Below the pieces are notes generated by a model. It saw only the letters and a list, made by a program, of their open reading frames with translations, was not told where the DNA came from and did no database searches. A DNA stretch of 44,765 nucleotides from a virus, in the IMG/VR virus record IMGVR_UViG_3300043444_000435, positions 1 through 44,765 of that record. One strand, written 5' to 3'. A program made the position numbers and the translations under genes. This document shows positions 4,879-30,388 of the stretch, one piece after another. Position 1 is the stretch's first letter. Every line of letters begins with the position of its first letter.

Positions 4879-4919
4879 GTTTTGTTCTCCGTGTTTACGT
4901 TGTTTATGTGTGTTATTAT

Positions 4920-10141: not shown

Positions 10142-11116
10142 ATGCTAATTAAATTTAAGAAAAGCTCAGAAGGCTTACAGCTAGCTGGTCCAGCATTAAT
10201 CTTTGTAGAAGGAAATCACGTTGATAGTAAGAAACGTGCTCATTCCTTTGGTCCTGATCGTATTCGTAAGATTGTAGAAAATACGAATATGTTTATGCGA
10301 AAAGGAGGTCGTGTTCCTTTTCAATCAGACCATCAGAAAACACAACAATTTAATTTAGGTGATGTTGAAGGTGAATTTTACTGTTGTCCAATTGACGAAA
10401 GTAATCTCCCTGACCCTAAGTACAAGCATTTAATTGGTAAGTTGGGCGTATTTGTAGATCGTCTAGTAGCTAAAGGTACAGATGCTGTCAAAGCAATTAA
10501 GGAGGGAAAGATTCGTACTTTATCTCCCGGTATTGACCCTGTGACAGAAGCTTTTGTAGAAGTATCCGCTACTCCAATTCCCGCTATTATTGGCCCTAGT
10601 ATTATGTTCAGTAGAGATGGAACTGATTACGAAGCTGATAATATTTTGTTGTTCGAGTCATCTTCTCTAAATCCTCGTCCTAGCGCGAGTTATGAAGGTG
10701 ATGATGAGGATGATTATCAAGGTAATATCTCTCCCGCTATGAGTCGTAAAACTAAAGTGTTCTCTATGGAGGAAGCTTTAGGACGTAGTGAGAATATTAA
10801 GCAGATTAAGACCAAGTATGATGAGTTATCTGAAGCTCTTTATCGTGTTCTTTGTTCTTATTATTCTGCTGAGGAGGAAGAGTTACAAGGTAGAGACCCT
10901 GTAAAAGAAAGTTATAACAATATTGAATATTTTGTTAAAGAAATTGAAGGTTTGTTTGAGCTTACTTTTAAGGAAGAAGAACAACAAGAAGATGCAGAAA
11001 TGCCTGAATCTCCTGGGGCCAAAGCATCACAACAACCTCAAGCTAATTATTCTCGTTATGATGGTTTGAGCTATAATCCAAATAGATTGTTTAGACGACG
11101 CAAATATGACTATTGA
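10142..11116 (+). CDS. prohead protease (Mu gpI-like) with scaffold-like C-terminus
   Basis: This protease would mature the prohead by cleaving scaffold and other head proteins. The N-terminal 155 residues fit the Mu gpI/herpes-assemblin-like pattern: V-P-F-Q-S-D-H (58-64), R-T-L-S-P-G-I (125-131) and V-S-A-T-P-I-P-A (141-148). His64 and Ser128 are the likely catalytic pair. Downstream are two possible self-processing sites of the Phe-Ser/Phe-Glu type (I-M-F-S-R-D and L-L-F-E-S-S, residues 154-170), followed by an acidic Glu-rich region like a scaffold. The gene overlaps the next by 11 bp, implying translational coupling. Position between MuF and scaffold/capsid is exactly Mu-like. Assignment rests on motifs and context. 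Confidence 0.75.
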   Translation: MLIKFKKSSEGLQLAGPALIFVEGNHVDSKKRAHSFGPDRIRKIVENTNMFMRKGGRVPFQSDHQKTQQFNLGDVEGEFYCCPIDESNLPDPKYKHLIGKLGVFVDRLVAKGTDAVKAIKEGKIRTLSPGIDPVTEAFVEVSATPIPAIIGPSIMFSRDGTDYEADNILLFESSSLNPRPSASYEGDDEDDYQGNISPAMSRKTKVFSMEEALGRSENIKQIKTKYDELSEALYRVLCSYYSAEEEELQGRDPVKESYNNIEYFVKEIEGLFELTFKEEEQQEDAEMPESPGAKASQQPQANYSRYDGLSYNPNRLFRRRKYDY

Positions 11117-11993
11117 TTTTTATACCGGCCCTTACCAAGAGCTAGTTACGTTTAGTACCGCTGTAGCTGAAGCGCCTTTCGCTTCCGAACTACTGTCCAA
11201 ACTCGAAGAAGAGTATGAGACTATTGATGAAGCCATTGAGGACTTGGTTGAAGGTTTTAATGCTGCTGGTTTCGATGCTACGGAAGAAGATGTTCTGGAA
11301 ATGTTGACCGAGCAAATTCCGATTTCGGCTGAAGCTCTTGAAGTTCTTGCAGAATACTACATTGATGAAGATGGTGAAGCTGACGAAGTTGGCTACGAAC
11401 GTCTTGTTAATGCCGCTGTAGCTTCTCATCAAGCCTTCATTGAAGATGATGAAGATGAAGACGACGAAGAAGATGAAGACCCTTATACTACTTATGATGA
11501 AGATGAACTCTACGATGACCTTGATGAAGAATTCGAGGTTGAGGATGAGTATGATGAGTACGATGAGGATGACCTGATTGATGAAGAAGAAGCTGAAGAA
11601 TTTAACGCTGCGTATGAGCGTGTTCTTGAGTTTAGTCATCAACAAGAGATTAGTTCTCATCTGAATGACCTCATGGAATATGCGGCTCATCTTGTAGAAG
11701 AACAGCGTCTTGCTCCTATTGCCTTCCAATGGATGTTTGGTCAAGATGATGGTCAACGGGCTATTAACTTTAGTGCAGCTTCTGAAAGCCTTGGTATTGA
11801 TGATGTAACTCATCTTCAAGCTATCGAATATGCTCTGAATCTGTTTGACTCCATTGGTGAACTTACTAATCGTGCAGGATATCGTAGTCCTTTGAATTTC
11901 TCGTCTATCGCGATGGAAGACATTGCCCCTGATACGGCGGATGAGCAAGTTGACTCTTTGGCTGCGGGTATCTTTCGTGGGCTAAATTCATAA
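11106..11993 (+). CDS. very acidic scaffolding-like protein
   Basis: This 295-aa protein has a central run of almost continuous Asp/Glu (about residues 115-175). Flanking helical segments contain repeated Phe-Ser sites: V-T-F-S-T near residue 13, L-E-F-S-H near 173, I-N-F-S-A near 220 and L-N-F-S-S near 263. Acidic proteins between protease and capsid genes usually act as scaffolds that template the prohead and are then degraded. The spaced Phe-Ser sites would suit removal by the upstream protease. Its start lies inside the protease gene. Codon use shifts here to C-ending and CGT/CTG codons, as in the capsid gene, indicating high expression. Confidence 0.7.
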   Translation: MTIDFYTGPYQELVTFSTAVAEAPFASELLSKLEEEYETIDEAIEDLVEGFNAAGFDATEEDVLEMLTEQIPISAEALEVLAEYYIDEDGEADEVGYERLVNAAVASHQAFIEDDEDEDDEEDEDPYTTYDEDELYDDLDEEFEVEDEYDEYDEDDLIDEEEAEEFNAAYERVLEFSHQQEISSHLNDLMEYAAHLVEEQRLAPIAFQWMFGQDDGQRAINFSAASESLGIDDVTHLQAIEYALNLFDSIGELTNRAGYRSPLNFSSIAMEDIAPDTADEQVDSLAAGIFRGLNS

Positions 11994-13032: not shown

Positions 13033-14142
13033 ATGTCTTATATTTCTTCTTTCCTTTCACAAGCACAGAACAATAAAGTAGCAGATATGGTTATTGAAAC
13101 CACTCTGGCTAACCTTACTCACCGTTCCAATTTGTTGGATTCGTTCTGTCCGTTCAAGACTTATACCTCTACCAAATTTCTTTCGTACATCTTCGATAGA
13201 ATTAATCCCGTAGCTTCCGTTATCGCATACGGTACTGAAGCTCCTGCAACTCGTCAAGGTACGTTTACTCCGGTTGCGATGGAACTCATCAAAACTGGTA
13301 TTCAGTACGTCTATGATGAGAAAACCATGTGGGATATGAAACATGCCATGGAAGAAGCTAATCTGAAGAATATTCAGGTGTCTGATGTTGTTGGTCCTCG
13401 TGGTCAATATATTCAGGGTAGCAATAATGACTTGGCTAAATTCCTCTTTGGTACGATTGAACAAGTTGCACGAGCGCAAGTCGAACTGTTGGATGTTCTG
13501 ACTTGGCAAGTTCTGCAAACAGGGCAGATTAATCGTACTGACCCTCGTACCGGCGTAACTCTGAGTATGGATTATCGTAATCCCCACGATACTACATATA
13601 ACCATTTTCCGGCTGCTCTTACTGGTGGTGCGCGTTGGGACCAATTGGCTACGGCTAATGGTATTCAGGATTTGTTCAATGCAGTAGATACGTTCTCCGA
13701 TACCAATGGTTTTGCTCCTGAGAAGATTGTTATGTCTCGCAAAACTTATAACAACCTGCTTCAACAACAATCCACTAAGGATGCAGTTAGTTCTGCTACT
13801 GTAACTCAAGTGGGTACGGCATCTCCTGAACAACTTGACTTGGTGCTTGATCGTCGCGGTATTCCCCCGATCATCCGCTTTGACGAGATGTTCCAAAATC
13901 CTCTGATTGATGCAACTGTAACCAAGACTCGTTTCCTTAATGACGACCGCTTTGTATTCCTGTGTGAAAACATGGGTCAACGTGCAATGGGTCCGACTCT
14001 GGAAAATGATGGTCAAACGGGTATCTATGTGGTGACGAAAGAAATTAAGAGTCATCCTCCCGTAGATGCAACTATCGGTATTGCATCTATCATCCCTGTG
14101 TTTGCTGATCCTAAACTTCTGTTCAGCCAGCAAGTCAAATAA
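13033..14142 (+). CDS. major capsid protein (lambda gpE/HK97-fold type)
   Basis: This 369-aa shell protein has the usual length for E-type capsid proteins. Visible features are an N-terminal segment with L-T-H-R-S-N-L-L-D-S-F, a central region with D-V-L-T-W-Q-V-L-Q-T-G, the K-I-V-M-S-R-K-T-Y loop, and a C-terminal P-P-V-D-A-T-I region near residue 345. The C-terminus ends L-L-F-S-Q-Q-V-K, which carries the Phe-Ser motif also seen in the scaffold and protease and could be a trimming site. Codon use is strongly biased to CGT, CTG and C-ending codons, the clearest high-expression signature in the window. It sits after scaffold and decoration genes and before a terminator. Confidence 0.88.
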   Translation: MSYISSFLSQAQNNKVADMVIETTLANLTHRSNLLDSFCPFKTYTSTKFLSYIFDRINPVASVIAYGTEAPATRQGTFTPVAMELIKTGIQYVYDEKTMWDMKHAMEEANLKNIQVSDVVGPRGQYIQGSNNDLAKFLFGTIEQVARAQVELLDVLTWQVLQTGQINRTDPRTGVTLSMDYRNPHDTTYNHFPAALTGGARWDQLATANGIQDLFNAVDTFSDTNGFAPEKIVMSRKTYNNLLQQQSTKDAVSSATVTQVGTASPEQLDLVLDRRGIPPIIRFDEMFQNPLIDATVTKTRFLNDDRFVFLCENMGQRAMGPTLENDGQTGIYVVTKEIKSHPPVDATIGIASIIPVFADPKLLFSQQVK

Positions 14143-14276: not shown

Positions 14277-14732
14277 ATGATTATGGCTAAAGTATTTTTG
14301 AAGAAAGATTATATCTCTAAAGGAGGTAATTTCTATGGTGCAGGATATTATGAACAAGAGTCTTTACCTGAAGTAATTAGAGATAATTCTGATTACATTA
14401 AGATTACTGAAGTAGTTGTATCTAAGGAGCCTCTAGTAGAAAACGGTATTCGTACTATTACTTCTGATGATGGTCCTCGTACTCGTGAGATTAAGCCTAT
14501 TATTGGTGAACCAGTAAAGAGTGATATTGTTAAGGAAGAACCATTTATTAATATTAATGTTGCTTCCGAAGTAGAACTAAGTAGTCTTAAAGGTATTGGA
14601 CGTTCTACAGCTAAGAAAGTAATTGAACTTCGTGAAGTTTCTCCCTTCGTTAGCTTTAGTGATTTAGAAGAGAGAGTAGGATTATGGGGTGGAAGAACTT
14701 GGGATAGTTATAACATTAAGTTTGAATCCTAA
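14277..14732 (+). CDS. Mu gp35-like protein with helix-hairpin-helix domain
   Basis: This protein has 151 aa, or 149 if the second ATG at 14283 is used. The N-terminal 45 residues (K-V-F-L-K-K-D-Y, G-A-G-Y-Y, then a short acidic helix) resemble the small N-terminal domain of FluMu-type proteins encoded after the capsid gene in Mu-like phages. The C-terminal 60 residues hold a ComEA-like helix-hairpin-helix: I-N-V-A-S-E-V-E-L-S-S-L then K-G-I-G-R-S-T-A-K-K-V-I. That motif binds DNA backbone non-specifically. Directly behind the capsid gene, it fits a neck or head-completion role. Its 3' end is echoed twice in the following spacer. Confidence 0.65.
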   Translation: MIMAKVFLKKDYISKGGNFYGAGYYEQESLPEVIRDNSDYIKITEVVVSKEPLVENGIRTITSDDGPRTREIKPIIGEPVKSDIVKEEPFININVASEVELSSLKGIGRSTAKKVIELREVSPFVSFSDLEERVGLWGGRTWDSYNIKFES

Positions 14733-18078: not shown

Positions 18079-18705
18079 ATGGTTAACGAAAGAAAAACTA
18101 CAGGGGAAGATAGCACATTTATAGATAAGCTTAGAGAAGACCGTAGGCTTAGAGAAAAATCTACATCTGAAGAATACAGTAGGTTTTGGCGTGACTTTAA
18201 TTCCCGTAAGCAAGAAGCTTTAGAGTTTTCTAAAAAACGTAAGCCTATGAGTGAGGCTACCAAACAGAAGATTAGTCGTAGTGTAGCTAAGTCCAAAGGC
18301 AGTACTACAGGGTATGATGATTCTAATAAAGAAGACATTATTGATAAGACTGAGCGGTTTACAAATGCTATAGGGCCAATCTTAAGATATATTAGTGAAA
18401 GAGAAAAACTAAACGAGCGTAGAAAACGTAGACAATTAGCTTCTGTAAATAGTGCATTTTATGGAGTGCGTACAGGAAATAAAGTTGCAAACTACTTCAC
18501 CTTAAGTCCTGCTGAAAAAGCTAAACAAAAAGTTAGAATTGAAAGATATAGAGAACTTGGGTCTAGAGCGGATAAAAAGTTGGCTCTGGATACTAAAAAA
18601 CTAGGTTCTTTTGAAAGACAGACTAAATCTCAACGTATGGAAGTATTACGTAAAATGGAAGTAGATAGAAAGAGTCAAGAGTGGCAAGACCTGTTTAGTC
18701 TATAA
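18079..18705 (+). CDS. basic protein with a NUMOD3-like segment
   Basis: This 208-aa protein has an excess of Lys, Arg and Glu. Near residue 51 it has L-E-F-S-K-K-R, followed by M-S-E-A-T-K-Q-K-I-S-R-S, a match to the NUMOD3 DNA-binding module usually attached to homing endonucleases. No GIY-YIG or HNH nuclease residues are present. The rest is charged helix. The Phe-Ser-Lys-Lys site precedes the DNA-binding segment, as in the other cluster proteins, and might be a prohead protease site. I infer a DNA-binding protein of the virion interior. The ATG is preceded by AAAGG. Confidence 0.65.
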   Translation: MVNERKTTGEDSTFIDKLREDRRLREKSTSEEYSRFWRDFNSRKQEALEFSKKRKPMSEATKQKISRSVAKSKGSTTGYDDSNKEDIIDKTERFTNAIGPILRYISEREKLNERRKRRQLASVNSAFYGVRTGNKVANYFTLSPAEKAKQKVRIERYRELGSRADKKLALDTKKLGSFERQTKSQRMEVLRKMEVDRKSQEWQDLFSL

Positions 18706-18722
18706 AATATAGAATAAAGGTT

Positions 18723-19343
18723 ATGAAATATACAACAGAAGAAAGACTAGCAAGACGTTTAAGAGGAAGACTCAATATAGCAAATCAACCTGAAGTAGAT
18801 ACAGCACTTCAGACTATTCTTGGATATGGGCAAGCTGTAAGTGGTCAGACTGTAGATAATGCATTGATTGAACAGTTGGCAGAAGAACGTGATGCTTACA
18901 TAGACCTTATCTTAGGACAGGTCTACAATATGCCTTTAGCATTAACAGACCCAACTACGGTAGCAATAATGGCTGACCTTAGTGAAAGTCTTATTATAAG
19001 TTCTCTCTTACAAGTTCATTTCGTAGGAACCTCTCCTATCATCCCATCTGCGGATGTTAGTGGTGCAACACAAGAAACACGGAAACATGCAGAATATCTC
19101 CTTACGGCTCTTACCGTAGGACATAACATCTACATTCCCATATCCCCTATGGGTCAGAACAATAATCCAGGACTGACTCAAATGCAACCTCTCGTATTAC
19201 CAGGAGAAACTCTACGTATGAGGCCCCCGGATACAATTACAAGAAATCTAACTATCAGACAAGTTAAGGATACTTCAGCAATTAGAGCTAAATACTTTAA
19301 TGATGATGAAACTAAGACTTATTGGATGAGAGATAGATTGTAG
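18723..19343 (+). CDS. head completion protein (Mu gp36-like, DUF1320 type)
   Basis: This 206-aa protein begins with K-Y-T-T-E-E-R-L-A-R-R. It then has the core of the gp36/DUF1320 family: L-A-E-E-R-D-A-Y-I-D-L-I-L (about residues 51-62), Q-V-Y-N-M-P-L (about 64-70), and an A-D-L-S-E-S-L-I helix. These proteins form part of the neck between portal and tail. The C-terminal 80 residues are a Pro-rich extension (L-V-L-P-G-E-T-L-R-M-R-P-P) beyond the usual family length of about 140 aa. It is closely spaced after the NUMOD3-like gene. Confidence 0.7.
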   Translation: MKYTTEERLARRLRGRLNIANQPEVDTALQTILGYGQAVSGQTVDNALIEQLAEERDAYIDLILGQVYNMPLALTDPTTVAIMADLSESLIISSLLQVHFVGTSPIIPSADVSGATQETRKHAEYLLTALTVGHNIYIPISPMGQNNNPGLTQMQPLVLPGETLRMRPPDTITRNLTIRQVKDTSAIRAKYFNDDETKTYWMRDRL

Positions 19344-19376
19344 AATTAACTAAGAGTGTAATTCAAGTTTTAATAT

Positions 19377-19631
19377 ATGATTGGTTTAATAGAATTTGCT
19401 AGAACTAAAGGAGCAAAAGATAGGCGCAAGAGATTAACTAAAGGGTTAAATAGATTTGGGTCTAAACTACAAACAACCGGGTCTAGACTACAAAGAACAA
19501 GCTTTACTACACTTAGTGATAGTAATTTAGCAAGACGGACTGTTAATGCATTAACTAGAGGTACACAAGCTACAGGAAGGGGTATGCAGAAAGCAGGACG
19601 ATTTTTCAAACGTATTCGTACAAACGATTAA
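19377..19631 (+). CDS. small basic protein with F-A-R motif, putative internal head protein
   Basis: This 84-aa, very basic protein begins with G-L-I-E-F-A-R-T-K-G-A-K-D followed by a Lys/Arg run. The same block (F-A-R-x-x-G-x-x-D-[KR]) occurs in the products at 19659, 27838 and 28804. Here it is at the extreme N-terminus, so cleavage after the Phe-Ala would leave an 8-residue leader. The remainder has Leu/Thr/Arg helices likely to bind DNA. No enzymatic motif. I infer a T4-like internal protein with a capsid-targeting leader; this is a hypothesis. Confidence 0.65.
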   Translation: MIGLIEFARTKGAKDRRKRLTKGLNRFGSKLQTTGSRLQRTSFTTLSDSNLARRTVNALTRGTQATGRGMQKAGRFFKRIRTND

Positions 19632-19658
19632 ATTATAAACAACAAGGAGAAAACATAA

Positions 19659-20054
19659 ATGGCTACTAAAGCTGATTATATTTTGAATAGACTGGCTCGT
19701 ATTGAAGCAAGTCTTGAAGCACTGGAATTTGCGGCTGGTGTGGATTCTTATGAATTTGCACGTAAGCGTGGTTCTAGAGATAAGCAGAAGCGGAAGCGTA
19801 AAGGCTGGTCTACCGCACAGAAAGTTGGTGCTGGTTTGGCTGGCGTTGCTGCTCTTGGTGCTGCGGCTCGTTATGGTGGAGCGGCAATCAAGAAACGTCG
19901 TTTCAAATTAAATTCGGACCAAACTTTTGCTGATAGGATGGCGGCTACTAGAGGTGCCCGTGGCCAATTCAAACAAGACGTTGAGACCGTTAAGACAGGT
20001 TTTGGTAAAGCATACACTGGATTGAAGAGTCGTTTCGCTAAGAAAGCAGACTAA
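19659..20054 (+). CDS. abundant basic internal protein candidate
   Basis: This 131-aa protein has a helical N-terminus (residues 1-28), the motif Y-E-F-A-R-K-R-G-S-R-D-K (31-42), a Lys/Arg cluster, a Gly/Ala hydrophobic segment (about 56-77) and a basic tail. It has a strong Shine-Dalgarno sequence (AAGGAG). Its codons (CTG, CGT, GCG) are like those of the capsid and tail-tube genes and unlike its immediate neighbours, so it is probably made in large amounts. That fits an internal head protein present in many copies. Function is inferred. Confidence 0.7.
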   Translation: MATKADYILNRLARIEASLEALEFAAGVDSYEFARKRGSRDKQKRKRKGWSTAQKVGAGLAGVAALGAAARYGGAAIKKRRFKLNSDQTFADRMAATRGARGQFKQDVETVKTGFGKAYTGLKSRFAKKAD

Positions 20055-20077
20055 TTCCAAGTAAATGGGTATGAGAA

Positions 20078-21445
20078 ATGAGTAAAAAGAATAAAAATAG
20101 AAGACTGGCAAAGGCTAGTGTTATAAGTTCAGACGGTCTAAATACTAGACCCCTCATTTCTCATACTAATACCTCAATGGTTAGCGTTCGCCGTATGCAG
20201 AAGCCTGGTACGAAAGGAATATTGGATTATTGCCGACATAACCTTATTACTTTTGCTAAGAAGGAAGCACGAGGAAAAAGAAAATATGATGTTCGTTCCT
20301 ATATTCGTAAGGGCAAACGTGTTAGAGCATATTCTGCTTTTAGGTTATTTGGAAAGAAAAAGAAAGAGAATAAAAATAATACAGCCAGTAATCTTCTAAA
20401 AATTGCTGGGGCAGGGGTGGCTACAACTATTCTTTTTAAGAAAGGTATTAAAAGGCGATGGGATAAGTCAATTATAAAATCCTCTCTAGCTGTAGAAGAA
20501 AAAGCTGATAATCTAGTTAGAGATATTACTAAGTACTTAGATGACCCAATAGAATTTAGAAAACTAAAGAGAGCAGCTCAAGAAGAATTAATTAAAAAAG
20601 GTAGAAAGACTGACCCTCTTGCCCCTTTAGATAACCCTGATATTGTTAAAAGATATAATTTTGTTTCTAAAATACAGGATGCACAAAAGAAAAGCCAATC
20701 GAGTTTTTCTTTTGTTTTAGGAGGTATGGATGGGGGACAAGGTTTAACCGGACCTCTAATGGCTGGGAATATGAATCTCAGACTACCAGCGGGAAGATAT
20801 AGAAGAAAAAACCTAGAAGGGAAATCTTTCTTTAGCGTAGAAGACCCTACAACAACAGCTTACGGACATATCTGGACACAAACACAAAATAGAATTATTG
20901 TCCCTAGAAGCAGTTATAGTATGCGAATTCCTTTCTTTAATAAGGGGCTTAAAATCCCAGGAACTCCGGTTGGTGTGCCTATTAATAGAGTAGAACAACA
21001 GCTAGATGCTCTAAAAGCGGTGTTTGTTAAAAGTCGATTTTTCGGAGTTGATCCTGATGGGGAAGAGTTAGCTTACTATGCGTTAGCTGCTAGGAAATTG
21101 CTTCCTAAAAATACAGAAATTAGATTTATTGGCCAGTGTGCTGGAGGTTTTCATACTACGTATGCGGCTTCAGTATTAAATAAATTAAATATGCGGGTTA
21201 AGACTTTCAATATTGCAACACCTAATTTTGTACCTCACAATCTAGATACATCACAATTAAAAACTATAATATCTAAACATGATTCTTTTTACAGGTTAAA
21301 AAGTAAAAAAGATACGCCTATAGATGATGTATGGGGACATGCCTATTTTGGAAAAATTCCTAAAAAGGATAAGAAGAAAGCTAGTACAGGGTATGAGAAT
21401 TCATTAGCTATGGTAAGAGAATATAGAAGGTTTTTTGGGGAATAA
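20078..21445 (+). CDS. alpha/beta-hydrolase-like protein with Cys elbow and basic leader
   Basis: This protein has 455 aa. The leader has L-I-T-F-A-K-K-E (about residues 62-69) and V-R-S-Y-I-R-K-G-K-R-V-R (about 77-88), motifs shared across the cluster, then a short Gly/Ala/Ile segment (about 108-122). The C-terminal half looks like an alpha/beta-hydrolase. It has I-R-F-I-G-Q-C-A-G-G (348-357), a strand-elbow-helix with Cys354 where Ser is usual. T-F-N-I-A-T-P-N-F follows, as after the elbow in lipase-like folds, and an H-A-Y-F near residue 421 may supply the catalytic His. Dienelactone hydrolases also use Cys. The substrate is unknown. Linkage to leader motifs suggests it is packaged in the capsid. 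Confident gene, tentative fold. Confidence 0.6.
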   Translation: MSKKNKNRRLAKASVISSDGLNTRPLISHTNTSMVSVRRMQKPGTKGILDYCRHNLITFAKKEARGKRKYDVRSYIRKGKRVRAYSAFRLFGKKKKENKNNTASNLLKIAGAGVATTILFKKGIKRRWDKSIIKSSLAVEEKADNLVRDITKYLDDPIEFRKLKRAAQEELIKKGRKTDPLAPLDNPDIVKRYNFVSKIQDAQKKSQSSFSFVLGGMDGGQGLTGPLMAGNMNLRLPAGRYRRKNLEGKSFFSVEDPTTTAYGHIWTQTQNRIIVPRSSYSMRIPFFNKGLKIPGTPVGVPINRVEQQLDALKAVFVKSRFFGVDPDGEELAYYALAARKLLPKNTEIRFIGQCAGGFHTTYAASVLNKLNMRVKTFNIATPNFVPHNLDTSQLKTIISKHDSFYRLKSKKDTPIDDVWGHAYFGKIPKKDKKKASTGYENSLAMVREYRRFFGE

Positions 21446-21450
21446 CAATA

Positions 21451-22293
21451 ATGAATATTTATCTAAAATCATACCCTCTTATTCAGTTTAATAAGAAACA
21501 AGAGGAGAAAGTAAAAGGAGCACTGCAAATAGGAGCTGGCGGCTATATTGCAAAACAATCTATTAGTTCTGGGGTTCCAAGAGCACTAGGGGTTAGAATA
21601 GAGTCCCATACGACATCTAGATCTAAAGCAAAAAAGATATTGTCCGAAAATGGTTTTCTAGACCCTAAGTACGGGGGGACGGGGGCGGCAGTAGGAGCGG
21701 GGCCGGACTTTGTAAAAAGAAGTACTGGGTATGTTCATATTACGGGGGTACATGAAGGACATTATGGGAAACGTATACCTGAACAATTAGCCCCATTTGC
21801 CCCCTTATATAGAGCTATCCAAAGACGCATATATAAAACCTCTGCGGATAACCCTTCATTAAAAGGAATAGAGATTGCTGCTAATATAATTGGGCCTAAA
21901 AGAAATGCTAGAACCTTATATGTTGGGGGAAGTGATAAATATTTTTATGAAAATTTTGAACCCGACCCAGACGACTTAGCTATTAAGTCAAAGAAACCCA
22001 TAAAAGTTCACCCTAGTAAGCTAGCTGCTACACTAGATACTTTGAACAGAGAAGGTGGAGGAAATAAATGGAAAGGGGCACGTAAATTAATGAAGGCAAA
22101 TCCTAAAAGAGTAGGAGTTGGTTTAGCAATACTTGCTGGAGGAGGATTAGCCGCAAAAAGAGCTATTAGCTTAGGGGTCTCTAATATAAAAGGGGAATCG
22201 GGGTATAGGCCAAAAGGAAGGGTTAAATCTCACTTCAGAAAGTTAAGAAACAAAATGATTAGAGTTAAAAGTTTTATTAGAGGTGAAGGTTAG
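21451..22293 (+). CDS. putative ADP-ribosyltransferase-like virion protein, shorter paralogue
   Basis: This 280-aa protein is a paralogue of the next. Leader L-I-Q-F-N-K-K-Q (about residues 10-17). Then V-R-I-E-S-H-T-T-S-R-S-K-A-K-K-I-L-S-E-N-G (about 48-68), which resembles the His-containing strand and helix of PARP/KptA-type ADP-ribosyltransferases. A T-L-Y-V-G-G-S-D-K-Y-F with D-P-D-D follows near residue 155. The C-terminal 75 residues carry a Gly/Ala hydrophobic segment and the basic module K-S-H-F-R-K-L. The first half uses unusual GGG codons and contains G runs (21673-21702). T4 Alt is a precedent for an encapsidated, injected ADP-ribosyltransferase. Catalytic competence is uncertain. 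Confidence 0.5.
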   Translation: MNIYLKSYPLIQFNKKQEEKVKGALQIGAGGYIAKQSISSGVPRALGVRIESHTTSRSKAKKILSENGFLDPKYGGTGAAVGAGPDFVKRSTGYVHITGVHEGHYGKRIPEQLAPFAPLYRAIQRRIYKTSADNPSLKGIEIAANIIGPKRNARTLYVGGSDKYFYENFEPDPDDLAIKSKKPIKVHPSKLAATLDTLNREGGGNKWKGARKLMKANPKRVGVGLAILAGGGLAAKRAISLGVSNIKGESGYRPKGRVKSHFRKLRNKMIRVKSFIRGEG

Positions 22294-22331
22294 AATTGTA
22301 CAATGGATTTATATAATTATTTATCATCGTT

Positions 22332-24212
22332 ATGGCTAAACGTGGGATGGCAATGGGTGCCGTAAATAAACTTAATATTGGTGCCGGTAGAAAAGCTGGA
22401 TTGAGCCTTAATGGTAAAGGTCTTGGTACTTCCCCGTTTAGTCAATCTTCTTCTGGAGCGTCTAAATCAGTTCGTAAAGTTAACAGTGAAATTAAAAGTA
22501 AGTTAGCAAAACGAAAGAAAAAGGGAATGCTTAATATGGGAATGCAGACCGGTAAGCGTAAACCTGGAATGCAGACCAATAAAGAACAGACTATCCCCAC
22601 AATTAGTAAGGAACAACGTAGAGTAATGGAAACACAAAGAGCTAAAAAGAGACTGGGTAGAAGATTATCTAATTATTCTTTCGTTCCAACTATTAGTGTT
22701 GGACTAATTGAATTTAAGAAGGAAGAAGAGAAGAAGAAAAAAAGAGACCTTAGTAAGATTACTGGAATGGCTCAGATTGGTGCAGGAGCAACTATAGGTC
22801 AACAAGCTATTCGTTCAGGTTTACCTAGAGCCGTAGGTGTACGTTTAGAACAACATGGTACATCGCGTGCTGCGGCTAAGAATATTATTAAAGAAGGCTA
22901 TTTAGACCCTAGTTATGGGGGTTCTACTGGTGGTGTTACTGCATCAATGAAACTGCCTAAAGAATTTCTTGAAAGGGCTAAAGGACATACTTTTCTAAGT
23001 GGTAAAAACCCAAGTCACCCATTTTGGCAAGAAAGAAATAGGCTAAGTCCCGTATGGGATGTGGTAAATAGAAAGATTCAAGTTTTGGGTTATAGAGGGT
23101 CTAAGGCGGGAAAAATTACGGATGCGGATATAGAAAGAGGGTCACGCCATATTTCTGGGATTGTTAGTCAGATGTTACGGCCTATAGAAAAAAACTTAAA
23201 AGATCTAACCCCTGAATCCTACCTAGCTAAGGTCAGAGCAGGTACTAATTTTTCTGACCCTAATGATGTAAGATACCTTGAATCTCTAGAAAACGACCCT
23301 AAACGCTTAAGAGAAGCGGTTGACTATTATAGAGATGATTTTCTTAACTTATCTAAGCAAATAAAGAAGATGGGTAAACGAGGCTACAATGATGCCGCTC
23401 GTGTTGAAAGAATTCGTAGAATTCAAAAACGGGCCAATATGTTGTTTAAGCCCTATCAAGACGAATTTAAGACCAGAATTGAACCTATAAAAAGCAAAGG
23501 TAATTGGATTCATAATTCAGAGGGTAAACCTTTAGTTAGCTTAACTTATAAAGAAGAACTTCGTGATTTCCTAAGAGAGAAAGCTAACGCAGGGGATAAA
23601 CGGGCGGCACAAATACTTGGGTTACAGAGTGGCCTCGACGACCAACTTCGTTCTCAAAGAGCAGCTAAAATGATTGGTCTAACCGCAGGATGGACTGAAA
23701 AGTTAGTTAAGTCACCCGCATTAGGTGCCGCCGGAGTTGGTAGAACCTTATATATCCCTGGAACAGATGCCTTCTTTAATGATACAAGTAGGTTTGTATA
23801 CGACCCAGATGACCCATTTGGAAACCCTCTAAAAATGGGTAAAGCCATGGAGTCTGAACTGGGTGGTTTTGGTGGAAATGCTCTTAAGACTAAACAGAAA
23901 GTAAGAGCTTTTGGTAATAGGGCCGCAGCATCTAAATGGTTGCTTGAACAAGAAGGGGATGGAAATATCTTTAAGGGGGCCGGTAAGTTAATGAAAGCAA
24001 ATCCGGGTAGAGTTGGTGCTGGGTTAGCTTTATTAGCTGGGGGTGGATTAGCTTCTGGTGCCCTTATTGGTAAAGGAGTTTCTAATATACGAAAGAAACC
24101 TGAAGTTACAGTTGAATCCGATGGTAAAGTTAAATCTCACTTTAGAAAACTAAAGAACAAGATGATTAGAGTTAAGAGCTTCATCAGAGGGGAACGTAAT
24201 GAAAAAAGGTAG
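22332..24212 (+). CDS. putative ADP-ribosyltransferase-like virion protein, longer paralogue
   Basis: This 626-aa protein has a 110-aa basic, Gly/Ser/Lys-rich N-terminus, then S-V-G-L-I-E-F-K-K-E-E (about 121-131) and a Gly-rich stretch. The transferase-like segment V-R-L-E-Q-H-G-T-S-R-A-A-A-K-N-I-I-K-E-G (about 169-188) has the H-G-T-S found in PARP-type enzymes. L-Y-I-P-G-T-D-A-F-F with D-P-D-D lies near residue 475, after a helical insert of about 250 residues absent from the shorter paralogue. The last 75 residues (G-K-L-M-K-A-N-P, Gly/Ala segment, K-S-H-F-R-K-L) are nearly identical to the upstream gene, showing a fairly recent duplication or exchange. It overlaps the next gene by 14 bp. 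Confidence 0.5.
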   Translation: MAKRGMAMGAVNKLNIGAGRKAGLSLNGKGLGTSPFSQSSSGASKSVRKVNSEIKSKLAKRKKKGMLNMGMQTGKRKPGMQTNKEQTIPTISKEQRRVMETQRAKKRLGRRLSNYSFVPTISVGLIEFKKEEEKKKKRDLSKITGMAQIGAGATIGQQAIRSGLPRAVGVRLEQHGTSRAAAKNIIKEGYLDPSYGGSTGGVTASMKLPKEFLERAKGHTFLSGKNPSHPFWQERNRLSPVWDVVNRKIQVLGYRGSKAGKITDADIERGSRHISGIVSQMLRPIEKNLKDLTPESYLAKVRAGTNFSDPNDVRYLESLENDPKRLREAVDYYRDDFLNLSKQIKKMGKRGYNDAARVERIRRIQKRANMLFKPYQDEFKTRIEPIKSKGNWIHNSEGKPLVSLTYKEELRDFLREKANAGDKRAAQILGLQSGLDDQLRSQRAAKMIGLTAGWTEKLVKSPALGAAGVGRTLYIPGTDAFFNDTSRFVYDPDDPFGNPLKMGKAMESELGGFGGNALKTKQKVRAFGNRAAASKWLLEQEGDGNIFKGAGKLMKANPGRVGAGLALLAGGGLASGALIGKGVSNIRKKPEVTVESDGKVKSHFRKLKNKMIRVKSFIRGERNEKR

Positions 24213-25152
24213 ACGACATACTAAAGAAACTAAAAGAAAGATTTCTGAATCAATGAAAAAAAGGGTTAGTCTTCATCATCATATGGCTAAGGGTTCTTTA
24301 ATTGGTGCTGGGACTGGAGCTACTTTACAAGGTATCCCGGCTGCTTTAATTGGTACGCATATTGGTGGTCCTATGCTTGGTATCCCCTTAACTATTAGTG
24401 CTATGGGAAGAGGGGCTATTGAAGGTGGAACATTAGGGGGTATTGCCGGAGCGGGTACATACTATGCTAAGAGAAAATTCGATACTAAGAATAGAGCTAG
24501 GTATGAATACAAGAAAGATTTGTCTGTATATGATTTCACTAAGAAAGAGCTAATACCTTATAATTTTGCTAAGAAAGAACAAAAAGTAAAATCACATACT
24601 AGAAGGACTAAGAGGGGAACCACGATTGTTAATCCTTTCGTTAGAGTTAAACGCTATTTTAACCCTGAACCGGCTAAAGGAAGTATCTATACTGCACCAT
24701 TTAGATATGCGGCTTTATCTGCTCAAGCATCTAAAGGTAAATTTCAGAATTTAATTAAAGACACTCCTAATCCTAAAGAAGCAACTGAACGTTTAGGTGC
24801 AACAATCGGGGTGGGTCTAGGAAGACTCGATACATTACGAAAGAAAATTAGAGATAGAGGGAAAGACTTTACAAGAGGTATTAAGCTCGGTCGTAGAAGT
24901 GAGGGTGTACGAGATACTTTTGAACGGCACCGTTTAGGTGAGAATATTGGAGTAGTTGGGGGTCTTTATGCTGCTTCTAGAGGTCTTAAAGGTACAGGGA
25001 TTAAGACAGCTTTAGTACAACCTAGTTCAGGCTTAGTTTGGGATGACCAATTTAGAAAAGCATCTAAAGGTAAGAAAGCTTTGATTGTTGGTGGAGGACT
25101 AGTTGCTGCTAGTCAGATAGCAAGAATTACAAATAGATATCTACAAGACTAA
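24199..25152 (+). CDS. NUMOD3-like, Gly-rich multi-segment putative internal protein
   Basis: This 317-aa protein starts inside the previous gene. It opens with R-R-H-T-K-E-T-K-R-K-I-S-E-S-M-K-K, a NUMOD3-like DNA-binding segment. Two Gly/Ala hydrophobic stretches follow (about residues 33-92), then two tandem leader-type motifs, Y-D-F-T-K-K-E-L and Y-N-F-A-K-K-E-Q (about 112-128), and K-S-H-T-R-R-T-K-R-G (131-140). A further Gly-rich hydrophobic stretch lies near the C-terminus (G-G-G-L-V-A-A-S). No catalytic motif. The combination of DNA-binding, basic and membrane-like segments suggests a role during capsid assembly or DNA delivery, but that is inference. Confidence 0.6.
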   Translation: MKKGRRHTKETKRKISESMKKRVSLHHHMAKGSLIGAGTGATLQGIPAALIGTHIGGPMLGIPLTISAMGRGAIEGGTLGGIAGAGTYYAKRKFDTKNRARYEYKKDLSVYDFTKKELIPYNFAKKEQKVKSHTRRTKRGTTIVNPFVRVKRYFNPEPAKGSIYTAPFRYAALSAQASKGKFQNLIKDTPNPKEATERLGATIGVGLGRLDTLRKKIRDRGKDFTRGIKLGRRSEGVRDTFERHRLGENIGVVGGLYAASRGLKGTGIKTALVQPSSGLVWDDQFRKASKGKKALIVGGGLVAASQIARITNRYLQD

Positions 25153-25161
25153 TAAAAAATC

Positions 25162-25911
25162 ATGACAAATAAAAATTATAGACACTCAGAAGAAACTAAG
25201 CGTAAGATCAGTAGAGCCTTAAAAGGTAAAAAGCGTAAACGTAATAATAGTTTAGCTATTGGGGGTGGTGCTACAGCCATTGCCGGTACAGGACTAGCTG
25301 TTGGCTCAAATCTCCAAGCTAAAAACTTAGAAAAATCAATTGGTCAATACAATAATGATTTAGCTAAAGTTGCTCGTGAACTAAAGCATAGACAAAAAGG
25401 ACTAGCTAGAGGTCAGGATAAAGCTTATAGTTTAATGCAAGAAACTTTTAGTACTGAATTAGACCCTAAGTATGATTCTTTGTCTAAAGCTATGCAGAAG
25501 AATAGAGAAAGAGCTATTGAACTAGAACAGGAACTTAATGCTAAGGGAAAAGTTAAACTCCCTAAAGTGTTAGGGGGTAAGAAAAGAAAAGAACTTGATT
25601 CTCTGACAACTCAATTAGACCAACAACAACAAGAGTTAAAAGTATATAAAAGACAACTAAAAGCAAAAGCGGATAAAGCGGAAAAGTTTTTAACTCGTCT
25701 TTATCCTCAAGGAACAGATAAGATTAAGGCCCGTATTAGCGCTTTAGAAAATAGTCAAAGTAACTTACAATCTTCTATTGGTAAAGCACAAAAAGGAATT
25801 AAACGTCTTGGAAAATTAGCGGTTGTAGGTAAAGGGTTAGCTGCTACAGGGGCATTAACTGCGGCTACTGCAATGGCATTAAAAGCTCGTAATAGAAAGA
25901 AACGTAGATAA
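25162..25911 (+). CDS. NUMOD3-like protein with coiled coil between two Gly/Ala segments
   Basis: This 249-aa protein begins Y-R-H-S-E-E-T-K-R-K-I-S-R-A-L-K-G-K-K, the clearest NUMOD3 match in the window. A Gly/Ala hydrophobic segment (about 32-51) is followed by about 160 residues of Lys/Gln/Leu-rich heptads (likely coiled coil). A second Gly/Ala segment (about 219-242) ends in basic residues. The symmetrical plan (basic, hydrophobic, coiled coil, hydrophobic, basic) is consistent with a hairpin protein that spans or lies on a membrane, or an oligomeric internal core protein. The stop is 17 bp before the next gene. Function unknown. Confidence 0.6.
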   Translation: MTNKNYRHSEETKRKISRALKGKKRKRNNSLAIGGGATAIAGTGLAVGSNLQAKNLEKSIGQYNNDLAKVARELKHRQKGLARGQDKAYSLMQETFSTELDPKYDSLSKAMQKNRERAIELEQELNAKGKVKLPKVLGGKKRKELDSLTTQLDQQQQELKVYKRQLKAKADKAEKFLTRLYPQGTDKIKARISALENSQSNLQSSIGKAQKGIKRLGKLAVVGKGLAATGALTAATAMALKARNRKKRR

Positions 25912-25916
25912 TCAAT

Positions 25917-25920
25917 GAGG
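25917..25920 (+). promoter_or_regulatory. Shine-Dalgarno sequence that selects a GTG start
   Basis: GAGG lies 8 bases before the GTG at 25929. No in-frame ATG is near the beginning of this gene, so the site supports GTG initiation. Confidence 0.6.
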
Positions 25921-25928
25921 CAAAGATA

Positions 25929-26690
25929 GTGATTAATTTTGAGAAAGAGTCAAATGTAAAATCTTATTTTCGTAATGGCAAACGTGTAAAGGGGCATAAA
26001 CGAAAAAGAGTTAGAGATTTAGGGGCTGATGCAGCTTATCGTAATGCCGCTGTAACAGGTGCAAGTTTAGGTCTTGTCAGTAGCTCCTTACAGTTAAGTG
26101 CTAAAAACATTATGCGTAAAGCTAATGAAAAAAGCAAAGTTACTTTTGAAGATATTATTGAGAATCCTGAAAAATTAAAACGATTTAAGGTGGAATTAGC
26201 TAATTACCCCGCTAGAACAGAACAAGAGGTTAGAGGTAAAAACTTCTTATTACCCAGATTAGAAAAATTAATTAAAGAACAAGATGAGTTAGCTCAATTA
26301 GAGAAAGCCTTTAATCCTGAAGAAACCTTAGGTAAAGAGATTAAAGATAAAATTACTTCTATTGAAAATAGGTCTGATTGGACTCCCGAACAAAAGAATA
26401 AAGCTATTAGCACACTTAGGGCTAAGAATGAACGCCCAGGTAAGTTAGCACTATACGACAAAGAGGTTGCTAGAAAAGCACCTAATGTTTGGCAATACAG
26501 ATGGAGAAAGTTCCGCTATCCTCAAAAATTAGAAGCTTTATTCCCTAAGAAGTTAACAGGAAGAAGAATTACTGGTGTTTTAGCGGGAGGAGCTGCTATT
26601 AATGCTGCAACTAACATACTAGCACTTAAAGGGGTTAGAGAACTAAGAAAGGCTGCTTTTAGAAGAAAGATGAGGAAATTAAAAAGATGA
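25929..26690 (+). CDS. basic Gly/Ala-segment putative internal protein
   Basis: This 253-aa protein starts with GTG behind a GAGG site. The N-terminus reads M-I-N-F-E-K-E-S, then V-K-S-Y-F-R-N-G-K-R-V-K-G-H (10-23), closely matching the module in the 20078 product. A hydrophobic Ala/Gly/Leu segment (about 38-58) and a second one near the C-terminus (G-V-L-A-G-G-A-A-I-N-A-A, about 216-230) flank a charged helical middle. It ends with an Arg/Lys tail. Its stop overlaps the ATG of the tail-completion gene (ATGA). It has the layout of the neighbouring cluster proteins; no domain is recognised. Confidence 0.6.
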   Translation: MINFEKESNVKSYFRNGKRVKGHKRKRVRDLGADAAYRNAAVTGASLGLVSSSLQLSAKNIMRKANEKSKVTFEDIIENPEKLKRFKVELANYPARTEQEVRGKNFLLPRLEKLIKEQDELAQLEKAFNPEETLGKEIKDKITSIENRSDWTPEQKNKAISTLRAKNERPGKLALYDKEVARKAPNVWQYRWRKFRYPQKLEALFPKKLTGRRITGVLAGGAAINAATNILALKGVRELRKAAFRRKMRKLKR

Positions 26691-27274
26691 GTCTAGAAGT
26701 AGAGATAAAGATTGATGAAGTAGCTGAAAAGATACAAGAATCTTTTGAGAAACAAGTTGAGAGGCTAGATAAGATAGATGAAATCGAACCTCTCTTTCGT
26801 TCTGTCATGAATTATGACCTTAAGAAGCGTTTTGAATCATCTCCTCCTACAGCTAGTGGGGGTATTGTTTATGGTCAACAGTATTGGCGACAATTATCAG
26901 ATGCTTATTTATTAGCTAAACCAGAAAGAGCTAACGGAACTATACATAAGGACTCTATGGCTCTAATGCAAAGTCTAACTGAACCACAACATCCAGAACA
27001 AGTTAGTACTATAACTCCAGAAGGATATTATCAATACGGTACAGATATACCTTATGCGGATAAATTACAGAAACAACTTAAGCGTCCCCTAGTCTTTACG
27101 CATGAAACTCTAAATACACAGCTATCCAATATCGTTAGTCTTTACCTTCTTAGCTCTAAGGATGTAGATGAAATAGAGTTAGAGTTAACTGATATTAGAA
27201 TAGAAGGTATGGGATTTGCTACAGCTAAGAATAATGAAATGCTAGAGCAAATACTTAAGGATGAGAAAAAATAA
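26687..27274 (+). CDS. tail completion / virion morphogenesis protein (Mu gpG, P2 gpS type)
   Basis: This 195-aa protein has the family pattern: an N-terminal helix, R-F-E-S-S-P near residue 45, then Y-G-Q-Q-Y-W-R-Q-L-S-D-A-Y-L-L-A-K (62-78). An M-A-L-M-Q-S-L helix and a Y-Q-Y-G-T-D-I-P-Y-A-D-K-L-Q segment (115-128) follow, corresponding to the Y-A-x-x-H-Q-x-G region of tail completion proteins. These act at the head-tail joint. It is coupled by ATGA to the basic cluster gene upstream and followed at 13 bp by another tail-joining gene. Confident as a family resemblance, though diverged. Confidence 0.65.
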   Translation: MSLEVEIKIDEVAEKIQESFEKQVERLDKIDEIEPLFRSVMNYDLKKRFESSPPTASGGIVYGQQYWRQLSDAYLLAKPERANGTIHKDSMALMQSLTEPQHPEQVSTITPEGYYQYGTDIPYADKLQKQLKRPLVFTHETLNTQLSNIVSLYLLSSKDVDEIELELTDIRIEGMGFATAKNNEMLEQILKDEKK

Positions 27275-27286
27275 CGGATTTTAATT

Positions 27287-27796
27287 ATGTCTACAATACT
27301 TGGAAACCACGAATATTGTTATAGATTAGGGTTATATCTAAAGGATTTTCTTAATAAAGAATACGTTAAGGAGAGAACTAAGAATACCGAACTAAGCGAA
27401 GGCACTATTGTTAAGACAGTTAAGAACTATGACTCTATTGTTAATAACTTAGCTGAGTTTCCTTTGCTTAAGCTTTATAGAACTCAAGACCAATTTAAGA
27501 AGGGTACTAACTTTAGAATTAGCACCATAACATTAACTTATTCGCTATCTCATCCTGATTTAAGTAATGACCAACAAGCAGTCCTACCAGACCTTATCTA
27601 TTGGGTTGGATATAAAATTAATGAAGGACTAAGACATTGGGACTTAGAGGTTAAAGGTGATTTTTATAAAATGAATGACGATACCTTTTCTATGAGTTAT
27701 ATGCTTAATGCTTCTGAAATACTAAATACTGTATATCCGTTTATTCGGTGTAGCTTTAGAGTTAGAGACCACTATATGATATGTCAACAAAAGTAA
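27287..27796 (+). CDS. putative tail terminator protein
   Basis: This 169-aa protein has mixed alpha/beta composition with a strand pattern in the middle (R-I-S-T-I-T-L-T-Y-S-L) and near the end (I-R-C-S-F-R-V-R-D). No signature motif is visible. Its place between the tail completion gene and the tail-tube gene, and its length, fit tail terminators (lambda gpU, Mu gp37-type), which cap the tube. It has an unusual 3' side: the last 26 bp, including the stop codon, are duplicated immediately downstream. Call is contextual. Confidence 0.45.
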   Translation: MSTILGNHEYCYRLGLYLKDFLNKEYVKERTKNTELSEGTIVKTVKNYDSIVNNLAEFPLLKLYRTQDQFKKGTNFRISTITLTYSLSHPDLSNDQQAVLPDLIYWVGYKINEGLRHWDLEVKGDFYKMNDDTFSMSYMLNASEILNTVYPFIRCSFRVRDHYMICQQK

Positions 27797-27822
27797 TATA
27801 TGTGATATGTCAGCAAAAATAA
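27771..27822 (+). repeat. echo of the 27287 gene's 3' end, 26-bp period
   Basis: Positions 27771-27796 (gene end with TAA) and 27797-27822 (also ending TAA) match at 21 of 26 by hand. The core GATATGTCA[AG]CAAAA is nearly perfect. Confidence 0.75.
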
Positions 27823-27837
27823 TAAATAATATGGGTT

Positions 27838-28326
27838 ATGAATAAGAAGAAAATTGGTTTAGTGCTTAAGGAATTTAGAGAAGGTAAGCTTAAGAGTTCT
27901 GCTGGTAGAAAGGTTACTAAAAAGAAACAAGCTTTAGCTATTGCATTGTCTGAAGCTAGACAAGATAAGTTTAGTCAAGCCGCATATAATCTCTTGGAAT
28001 TTGCTCGTACTAGAGGTTCTAGAGATAAGAAACCTCGTAGAAGACGTAAGGTTAGAGAAAGTCATCAAGAGTTACATAATGTAGCCGCAAGTAATGCTAA
28101 GACATTTGGTGCTACTGGAGCAGGATTAAGCTTAGTGGATAAACAAGTTAGAGAGACCGCATTAAAAGCCCCTAGTCAACTTGGAGGAGCTATTAAAGGA
28201 GCATTATCAAGAGCACCTCGTTATGCTGTTAAAGATGCTGTAACTGCTGCGGGTATTGGTGTAGGACTTGAAGGATTAAGAAGAGTAAGAAATAAGATTA
28301 GAGACCTAAAGAATAATAAGAGATAA
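27838..28326 (+). CDS. basic putative internal protein with F-A-R motif
   Basis: This 162-aa protein has a Lys-rich N-terminus with K-K-K-Q-A-L-A-I-A-L-S-E-A-R (about 24-41), a pattern seen in short plasmid or phage basic proteins. Then L-L-E-F-A-R-T-R-G-S-R-D-K-K-P-R-R-R-R-K (51-70), the strongest copy of the cluster motif. The C-terminal half holds an Ala/Gly segment (A-V-T-A-A-G-I-G-V-G) ending in basic residues. Its leader is about 53 residues if cleaved at the Phe-Ala. No catalytic motif. I infer a packaged DNA-binding protein. Confidence 0.65.
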   Translation: MNKKKIGLVLKEFREGKLKSSAGRKVTKKKQALAIALSEARQDKFSQAAYNLLEFARTRGSRDKKPRRRRKVRESHQELHNVAASNAKTFGATGAGLSLVDKQVRETALKAPSQLGGAIKGALSRAPRYAVKDAVTAAGIGVGLEGLRRVRNKIRDLKNNKR

Positions 28327-28339
28327 GGTAAATAGTAAG

Positions 28340-28807
28340 ATGGATTTCTGGCCAATAGTAAGAACAATTAAAGATTATAAAGGACTTAAGAATAAGATAC
28401 CCGTTAGGTCTAAAGTTCCCGTTCGTATTTATACACAACGAAAGGGAAAGACTGATTTTATTGGATTAATTGAGTTACATAAAAGACTAAGCAATATTGA
28501 ATTAAGTAAAAAACTAGATAGTATTGAATTTTCTCAACCTGATAAGAAAAGAACTCACAGTATAGCTGGTGTAGGGGCTATAGCTGCTGGAGGAGCAAAT
28601 GTCTGGAGTGGGGCAATGCTAGCGGGTGGTAAAAGAGCACCTTATACTAAGAATCCTACAATTTCACCTACTAAACTTGGTAGACATCAACTACGTGCTG
28701 GTATGGGAATTGCTGCTACTGGTATGTACCTACAACACCGTAGAAATAGAAAGTTGAGAAAACAAGGTTATAAACCTACAAGTACATTAATGAGTACAAG
28801 AAAATGA
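28340..28807 (+). CDS. basic Gly/Ala-segment putative internal protein
   Basis: This 155-aa protein contains F-I-G-L-I-E-L-H-K-R (about 39-48), the same G-L-I-E block found at the N-termini of the 19377 and 28804 products, and I-E-F-S-Q-P-D-K-K (about 64-72), a Phe-Ser version of the cluster motif. A Gly/Ala hydrophobic segment follows (about 78-98), then a basic tail with a second short hydrophobic stretch. The stop overlaps the next ATG (ATGA), so the two are coupled. No domain is recognised. Confidence 0.6.
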   Translation: MDFWPIVRTIKDYKGLKNKIPVRSKVPVRIYTQRKGKTDFIGLIELHKRLSNIELSKKLDSIEFSQPDKKRTHSIAGVGAIAAGGANVWSGAMLAGGKRAPYTKNPTISPTKLGRHQLRAGMGIAATGMYLQHRRNRKLRKQGYKPTSTLMSTRK

Positions 28808-29172
28808 TTGGATTGATTGAACTTCATAAACAGTCTTCTTTAACACCTCATACCTCATCTTTCGTTAACTTTGCAAGAACTCTTGGCGCTAAGGATAAGA
28901 AACCTCGTAAACGTAAACATTATGGTGTTTGGTTTGAAGGTAGACGTACGGCTATTCTTCCTGGACCTACAGAATCTAAAGCAGGAGCTATAGAAAAGGC
29001 TCGTGCTAAGATGAAAAGAGGTGGCGATAAAGCTAGAGTTAGAGAACTAACTAAGCAAGAAATAAGAACAGCAAATACTGGTAGATGGGTTCGTACGGGG
29101 TATAACCATGAAAAACCTGGCTATGAAGGTATGAGAGGATATGGGCCTAAACCTAAATCTTATGAGAAATAA
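28804..29172 (+). CDS. small basic protein with F-A-R motif
   Basis: This 122-aa protein opens with M-I-G-L-I-E-L-H-K, as in the 19377 product, then V-N-F-A-R-T-L-G-A-K-D-K-K-P-R-K-R-K (about 21-38). The remainder is basic with Gly/Tyr-rich ends and a V-W-F-E-G-R-R-T segment. It lacks the Gly/Ala hydrophobic segment of its neighbours. A leader of about 24 residues would be lost if the Phe-Ala were cleaved. It closes the basic cluster; the 55-bp spacer after it holds no obvious terminator. Confidence 0.6.
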   Translation: MIGLIELHKQSSLTPHTSSFVNFARTLGAKDKKPRKRKHYGVWFEGRRTAILPGPTESKAGAIEKARAKMKRGGDKARVRELTKQEIRTANTGRWVRTGYNHEKPGYEGMRGYGPKPKSYEK

Positions 29173-30351: not shown

Positions 30352-30388
30352 AATCTCTTTCGTTGTTTAGCGGAAGAGATTTTTTTTA
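30352..30388 (+). terminator. strong intrinsic terminator after the tail-tube gene
   Basis: AATCTCTTTCG (30352-30362) pairs with CGGAAGAGATT (30371-30381), 11 bp with one T-G pair and an 8-base loop, followed by a T run to 30387. The left arm contains the CTTTCGT heptamer. It separates the highly expressed tube gene from the chaperone and tape measure genes. Confidence 0.85.

Follow-up and report, generated by a model that had tools for sequence, protein, structure and literature searches.

The virus record IMGVR_UViG_3300043444_000435 raises the question of what a dozen strongly basic proteins are for when they are encoded between the capsid and tail-tube genes. The record, probably partial, was analyzed over its whole stretch of 44,765 bases (the window), and the region in question, positions 18079-29172, comprises 15 open reading frames (ORFs) on a single strand, 12 for basic proteins and 3 for ordinary adaptor or completion proteins. 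An initial annotation had described about eleven proteins here that combine a short sorting-like motif with Lys/Arg clusters and Gly/Ala hydrophobic segments, some carrying enzyme-like domains, and had read them as packaged, possibly injected, proteins that use a common signal. We confirmed that the motif-bearing basic cluster is a real observation, and its basic character holds for every member, all 12 having net charges of +17 to +65. Since these proteins have short tags at the front end in common, together with a probable cleavage site that also occurs in the scaffold and a minor head protein, they and their counterparts in relatives are probably packed inside the head, and some of them may be delivered into the host.

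The motif [ILV]xF[AS][RK] occurs five times in the 12 basic proteins versus 0.66 expected from shuffled sequences, and none of 500 shuffles reached five; in the 22 other proteins of the window it occurs once (1.1 expected). Likewise, GLIE[FL] and FARxxG[AS][KR]D[KR] were each found four times in the basic proteins, versus 0.02 and 0.00 expected. A shorter pattern refined after inspection, [ILVYM][ENTQD]F[AS], gave nine copies in the basic proteins (0.84 expected), five in the MuF-type minor head protein, the head protease and the scaffold-like protein together (0.80 expected), and three elsewhere in the window (3.9 expected). The claim of a shared motif was thus borne out, with an enrichment far beyond chance and, for the first three motifs, no excess in the other window proteins. 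A phi-x-F site lies near a basic stretch in 11 of the 12, but the 249-amino-acid (aa) protein starting at 25162 lacks it. Most of the 12 have hydrophobic segments rich in Gly and Ala, but in the window these are only mildly above shuffled sequence in hydrophobicity, and this part of the earlier description is therefore weaker.

The members of the cluster, all on the plus strand, are as follows (a slash stands after the Phe of the site, and related phages and loci carry G and L numbers). A 208-aa protein (18079-18705) has the site LEF50/SK, then a weak NUMOD3-like motif (14.5 bits, under the cut-off), and relatives in G4; it is followed by an 84-aa protein (19377-19631) that begins MIGLIEF7/ARTKGAKDRRKR and a 131-aa protein (19659-20054) with two sites, LEF24/AA and YEF33/ARKRGSRDK, and a Gly/Ala helix. 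The 455-aa protein (20078-21445) shows LITF59/AK, then KRKYDVRSYIRKGKRVRAY, and a C-terminal GxCxG motif. Next come a 280-aa protein resembling the ADP-ribosyltransferase (ART) superfamily (21451-22293), with a leader ending in PLIQF13/NKK and a C terminus of KVKSHFRK..VKSFIRGE, and its paralogue of 626 aa (22332-24212; 48% over 158 aa and 39% over 132 aa), which has a long N-terminal region and the site GLIEF128/KK. A NUMOD3 motif is found in the 317-aa protein (24199-25152; YDF113/TKKELIPYNF123/AKK) and in the 249-aa protein (25162-25911; Pfam NUMOD3 at 28.4 bits, cut-off 20.4), which has a Gly/Ala segment. The 253-aa protein (25929-26690) carries INF4/EK, then VKSYFRNGKRVKGHKRKR, and the 162-aa protein (27838-28326) a Pfam DUF6496 match (30.8 bits, cut-off 24), then LLEF55/ARTRGSRDKKPRRRRK. 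The last two have GLIEL-type leaders: a 155-aa protein (28340-28807) with SIEF64/SQPDKKR and a Gly/Ala segment, and a 122-aa protein (28804-29172) that begins MIGLIEL, continues with VNF23/ARTLGAKDKKPRKRK and has homologues in G1 and G4 (about 50%). Beyond the cluster, two basic genes adjoining the terminase large subunit (TerL) gene are probable outlying members: a 237-aa protein (3135-3848, plus strand; net charge +42) with a Gly/Ala helix near its N terminus and homologues in relatives' clusters, and its 174-aa paralogue (3867-4391, plus strand; net charge +24; 49% over 63 aa). For the NUMOD3 proteins of 249 and 317 aa, Pfam matched no adjoining nuclease domain, and their phrog_314/655 matches begin at the NUMOD3 stretch; a homing-endonuclease origin was considered for them and rejected for lack of a Pfam nuclease domain.

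The front ends shared within a phage follow one layout, in which a hydrophobic leader is succeeded by a phi-x-F/[AS] site, a Lys/Arg DNA-binding-like segment and a Gly/Ala helix. Behind the site, the basic modules alternate among GSKDKKKRK, NUMOD3 (Pfam) and KVKSYxRKGKxVRSY, and tandem genes in G4 resemble the NUMOD3-type basic proteins. Within one phage, the N termini are alike despite unrelated bodies, as in G2 (MRSLNSMMAEF/ARGKDKKKRR and MKLISSRYDLAEF/RRGKDKRQRK), G11 (MYLLTTF/KRKKGDKNK and MYLLNAEF/KKKKGDKNK) and L135 (MYYLSDFNTANF/ARKKGSKDKKKR and an ART-like protein with MYFISNIQNNKIANF/KTKEKKK). Among proteins with non-homologous bodies, leader similarity is higher within than between phages to a degree that 0 of 1,000 label permutations reached, and other module proteins showed no such within-phage excess. 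As judged from sequence, a short N-terminal leader is therefore common to proteins with unrelated bodies. The signature F..R..G..D[KR] was present in 38 of 127 basic proteins versus 2 of 582 controls, and across whole contigs it lies mostly within the head-tail module. Two copies outside the delimited module were seen in G003 (46825-47172, minus strand) and on the G007 contig (about 63048-63419).

The same Phe site recurs in proteins that belong to the head itself. In the 1726-aa MuF-type minor head protein (4908-10088, plus strand; phrog_115, E 1.7e-14), it lies at residue 144 (VIEF/AT); a Phage_Mu_F domain is assigned to this protein from a Pfam match just below the cut-off of 29.6 bits (29.1 bits, E 1.8e-6). 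The acidic scaffold-like protein (11106-11993, plus strand; net charge -80) has four phi-x-F[S] sites, at F16, F176, F222 and F265. The Phe is conserved in 11 of 11 relatives at a single N-terminal MuF column and at a single scaffold column and in 8 to 10 of 11 at the remaining columns; in both proteins the site stands without a basic tail, amid poorly conserved surroundings. The proteases, too, have phi-x-F[AS] sites, which lie in tails at the N or C terminus and whose spacing is not conserved. When a matrix trained on the scaffold sites alone, which are not independent because the scaffold sequences are homologous, was applied at a strict setting, it detected 12 sites within the N-terminal 70 aa of the basic proteins versus 3.0 (standard deviation, 1.7); there was no excess in the remainder of these proteins (2 versus 3.5) and none clear in other module or genome proteins. 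In G2, residue P3 is Ala at 4 of 4 core sites and at 10 of 10 sites of basic proteins; the corresponding numbers for the window, G1 and G4 are 0 of 13 and 1 of 17. In both G2 and L143, a basic module is fused onto the C terminus of the protease, with F sites in between, and G2 has one fused to the scaffold as well. These comparisons indicate that scaffold, protease and basic proteins have the same site, as in T4-type systems. The common signal of the initial annotation thus stands insofar as leaders are alike within a phage and the site extends to the scaffold and the minor head protein, but not every member has it; the motif is indeed shared, but it looks less like a plain sorting tag than like a site for processing joined to an anchor for DNA binding. 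Apart from the site, the MuF protein shows a Lys/Arg cluster and a Gly/Ala helix after its MuF domain (8355-8475, about residues 1150-1190), followed by a C-terminal region of ~500 aa.

A candidate enzyme for such a site is the head maturation (prohead) protease encoded at 10142-11116 (plus strand), which has a phi-x-F site of its own at F156. Its AlphaFold2 model has a mean predicted local distance difference test score (pLDDT) of 63, with scores of 68-94 for the ten-residue blocks of residues 1-140. The top Foldseek match was human cytomegalovirus (HCMV) protease (probability 0.60, E 0.17). In a second structural alignment, residues 9-151 matched the proteases of varicella-zoster virus, pseudorabies virus, HCMV, herpes simplex virus, Epstein-Barr virus and Kaposi's sarcoma-associated herpesvirus at Z of about 6-8.4 over ~100 residues, the best herpesvirus maturation protease match having a Z of 8.4 and a root mean square deviation (rmsd) of 2.7 over 104 aa. 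H64 and S128 are invariant in nine relatives, and Pfam Mu-like_Pro gave no match at E 1 in nine records. According to the model, the 10142-11116 product has an assemblin fold; prohead proteases are known kin of herpesvirus proteases (PMC9026906).

We propose that a short phage-specific leader would bring the 12 basic proteins into the prohead core, where the assemblin-fold protease would process them at phi-[ENT]-F/[AS], cutting on the C-terminal side of the Phe; it would use the same kind of site to break up the acidic scaffold and trim the MuF protein. The remaining basic segment would tether each protein to the packaged DNA and thereby retain it in the head, and the enzyme-bearing members, at least, would exit with the DNA and act in the host. 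This reading is partly supported, as it fits the common signal and its recurrence in scaffold and minor head protein, the head protease, the placement in a head-tail operon, seen in many relatives as well, and the enzyme domains behind a like leader. Leader targeting, F-site cleavage, presence in the virion and injection are what we infer from the genes. We hold packaging of the cluster proteins to be quite probable and their cutting at the F site fairly probable, and the balance tips slightly toward injection of some of them; the explanation as a whole, from leader and Phe cleavage to DNA anchor and delivery, we regard as probable.

Several points weigh against it. The system is known here from genes and models, and some of the patterns were sharpened after the data had been seen. 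A clear site is missing in the 249-aa protein of the window and in several basic proteins of G5 and G9, within-phage paralogy could be the source of part of the leader similarity, and the correlation of P3 residues between core and basic sites over nine phages was not significant (rho 0.52, p 0.15). Two further points are also what one would expect if the front end were a DNA- or core-binding motif retained intact, targeting the proteins without cleavage: some leaders, with 3-5 residues (MYEF and MINF in G1), are short for a targeting peptide, and conservation in the basic proteins continues at least 10 residues past the Phe (FARxxGSKDKKxRK), beyond what a protease needs. We consider such targeting without cleavage rather unlikely, given that the Phe site is conserved without a basic tail in the scaffold and MuF proteins, at places of low conservation, and that the window encodes a protease of fitting fold.

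Some of the proteins have enzyme-like domains. The model of the 280-aa protein (pLDDT 74) gave no match in a Foldseek search. In a second alignment, its residues 49-190 were matched with KptA/Tpt1 (Z 4.7, rmsd 2.7, 81 aa), CC0527, TreTu and other ARTs at Z of 3.4-4.7, below 8, and most other rows of that alignment cover long helices of the domain. The 280- and 626-aa proteins both have an HxTS motif and a conserved Tyr, and we assign the 280-aa protein as ART-like with moderate confidence. In relatives, a 286-aa protein with the leader MFLISDVTTF/SKKKGKRN matched the Pfam ADP-ribosyltransferase exoenzyme family (E 2.7e-4; 20.8 bits, under the 23.4 cut-off), and in G2 a basic protein of 246 aa matched protein kinases above the cut-off (E 7e-9). 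Enzyme domains thus include an ART-like one in the window and, among relatives, an ART of a second type as well as a protein kinase. The ART-like domain agrees with the expectation that some members bear enzyme-like domains; the idea that the 455-aa protein is an alpha/beta hydrolase, suggested by its GxCxG motif, was unsupported by Pfam or PDB matches and was dropped. In several phages these domains either follow a like leader or belong to proteins of the same clusters. They speak against a purely DNA-condensing role, in which the proteins would be packaged and processed, would serve during packaging as counter-ions or to fill the core, and would have neither host delivery nor an effector function. 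Most of the basic proteins are short, very basic and enzyme-free, and the NUMOD3 and DUF6496 segments resemble nucleic-acid-binding modules, all of which such a role would explain; we nevertheless find it unlikely as the full account, if still a serious contender.

Scans for close relatives with the major capsid protein, the 626-aa protein, the 162-aa protein and the 280/626 pair found none. A motif-alignment scan returned three records, two of which are overlapping pieces of a single phage; a capsid alignment yielded about twenty IMG/VR loci at 35-56% identity, besides a Pseudanabaena-like group, and the 280-aa family search 37 loci. Basic gene clusters are present in the head-tail module of most lineages of relatives. 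G6, G8 and G12 are without the strongly basic expansion; in G8 and G12, the cluster position is occupied by genes for less basic proteins, with ANF-type motifs. The closest isolated phages are those of the cyanobacterium Pseudanabaena, PA-SR01 and Pam2, with distant capsid protein matches only (34%), and the annotated ones were viewed as gene tables only. Isolated phages searched with the 626-aa, 122-aa and MuF proteins gave no matches, none was found in the species genomes searched, and photosystem genes, sought as a host clue, were not found in nine records. Among the basic genes of relatives, GIY-YIG-like and HNH-like genes were recognized by eye in L116 (4618-5919), L117 (7828-8163) and L135 (3809-4882), and perhaps they are linked to gene gain. 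Such genes, together with the Gly/Ala hydrophobic segments, would suit a late non-structural set, for example membrane-active or engaged in host takeover, that is co-expressed with head genes, stays unpackaged and spreads via duplication and homing endonucleases. This explanation seems improbable to us; it does not explain why scaffold, MuF and protease have the motif in common with the set, and the basic module fused to the G2 protease and scaffold counts against it too. The 907-aa TerL of IMGVR_UViG_3300040801_004793 seems to be interrupted by an intein-like segment past its Walker A region, and the 777-aa TerL of G4 may be similar.

The surroundings of the cluster are those of a head-tail module. 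On the plus strand, the terminase large subunit gene is followed by the two outlying basic proteins, the MuF-type protein, the protease, the scaffold-like protein and a 286-aa protein that relatives retain. The major capsid protein (13033-14142; phrog_29, E 1.2e-29) comes next, then small head proteins and the basic cluster; behind it lie a tail-tube-like protein, a tape measure of 3143 aa and genes of the tail tip, some of these names being assigned from position. The three ordinary genes within 18079-29172, one adaptor-like (18723-19343) and two completion-like (26687-27274 and 27287-27796), match conserved genes of relatives and fall outside the basic set. PHROGs recognized no portal protein in the window, and Pfam SPP1_portal had no match in nine records (the window and eight relatives). 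The capsid C terminus KL[LF]FS (KLLFS in the window, 14110-14142) resembles the phi-x-F site and is retained in the nearest relatives, so that C-terminal trimming there is possible; capsids of more distant relatives have a C-terminal NLA[DE]F. After the capsid gene, a 151-aa protein (14277-14732) that is conserved in relatives has a C-terminal LSSLKGIGRSTAKKVIELR, which looks helix-hairpin-helix-like. Directly after the tail-tube gene, a strong terminator-like hairpin (30352-30381; 13 pairs, T tract) may mark where the late head-tail operon stops.

Few phages have had their head-delivered proteins characterized in detail. A readable signal would allow sequence-based prediction of packaged effectors across the whole phage group and supply candidate first-minute host-takeover proteins, and the system would offer a direct test of the joint evolution of head proteases and cargo. 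More tentatively, and with somewhat less than even confidence, we suggest an open head-loading code in a large uncultured phage group, consisting of a phage-specific leader, a Phe-type site, an exchangeable DNA-binding anchor and any enzyme; gene acquisition would add effectors to the virion cargo and displace others, and each phage's code would drift with its own scaffold and protease.

Among known systems, the T4 internal proteins (IPs) carry leaders of 10-19 residues, which attach to the core and which gp21 cuts off (PMC9026906). Like T4 IPI-III and Alt, the set described here combines basic, putatively internal proteins and an ART-like protein with a short common N-terminal leader, a putative processing site shared with the scaffold and a prohead protease of the same general kind (PMC9026906). 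T4 cleavage is of the Glu type (PMC9026906), whereas the conserved, enriched site here has Phe at the putative cleavage position P1, and for this reason we do not count the system among those of the T4 type. Other differences are that it has about a dozen members with a DNA-binding-like anchor after the site and that it belongs to long-tailed phages related to Pseudanabaena phages; no cluster protein matched the T4 IP or Alt families in PHROGs or Pfam. Phage P1 likewise packages several proteins in its head, and the N-terminal 30 residues of DarB suffice to send a reporter into the capsid (PMC9024508); the window proteins are putative head cargo known from genes, and their leaders are shared within a phage, whereas no common leader was found among the Dar proteins (PMC9024508). 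In SPN3US, internal proteins are numerous and the protease, gp245, is specific for Glu; a protease with a C-terminal propeptide and multiple motif copies in propeptides are further likenesses, whereas its cleavage after Glu and the long propeptides on its capsid and ejection proteins are differences (PMC7411985, PMC10052503). Head-packaged ARTs have been widely proposed from gene context, and they and MuF fusions resemble our case in having effector enzymes adjoining or fused to head genes, but the putative effectors here are separate proteins with a common leader and not fusions alone (PMC9503650). The same likeness and the same difference apply to the MuF polymorphic toxins (PMC5576092). On balance, the genes are best read as a T4/P1/SPN3US-like system of internal proteins whose processing grammar differs, being based on Phe, and whose modular cargo has expanded.

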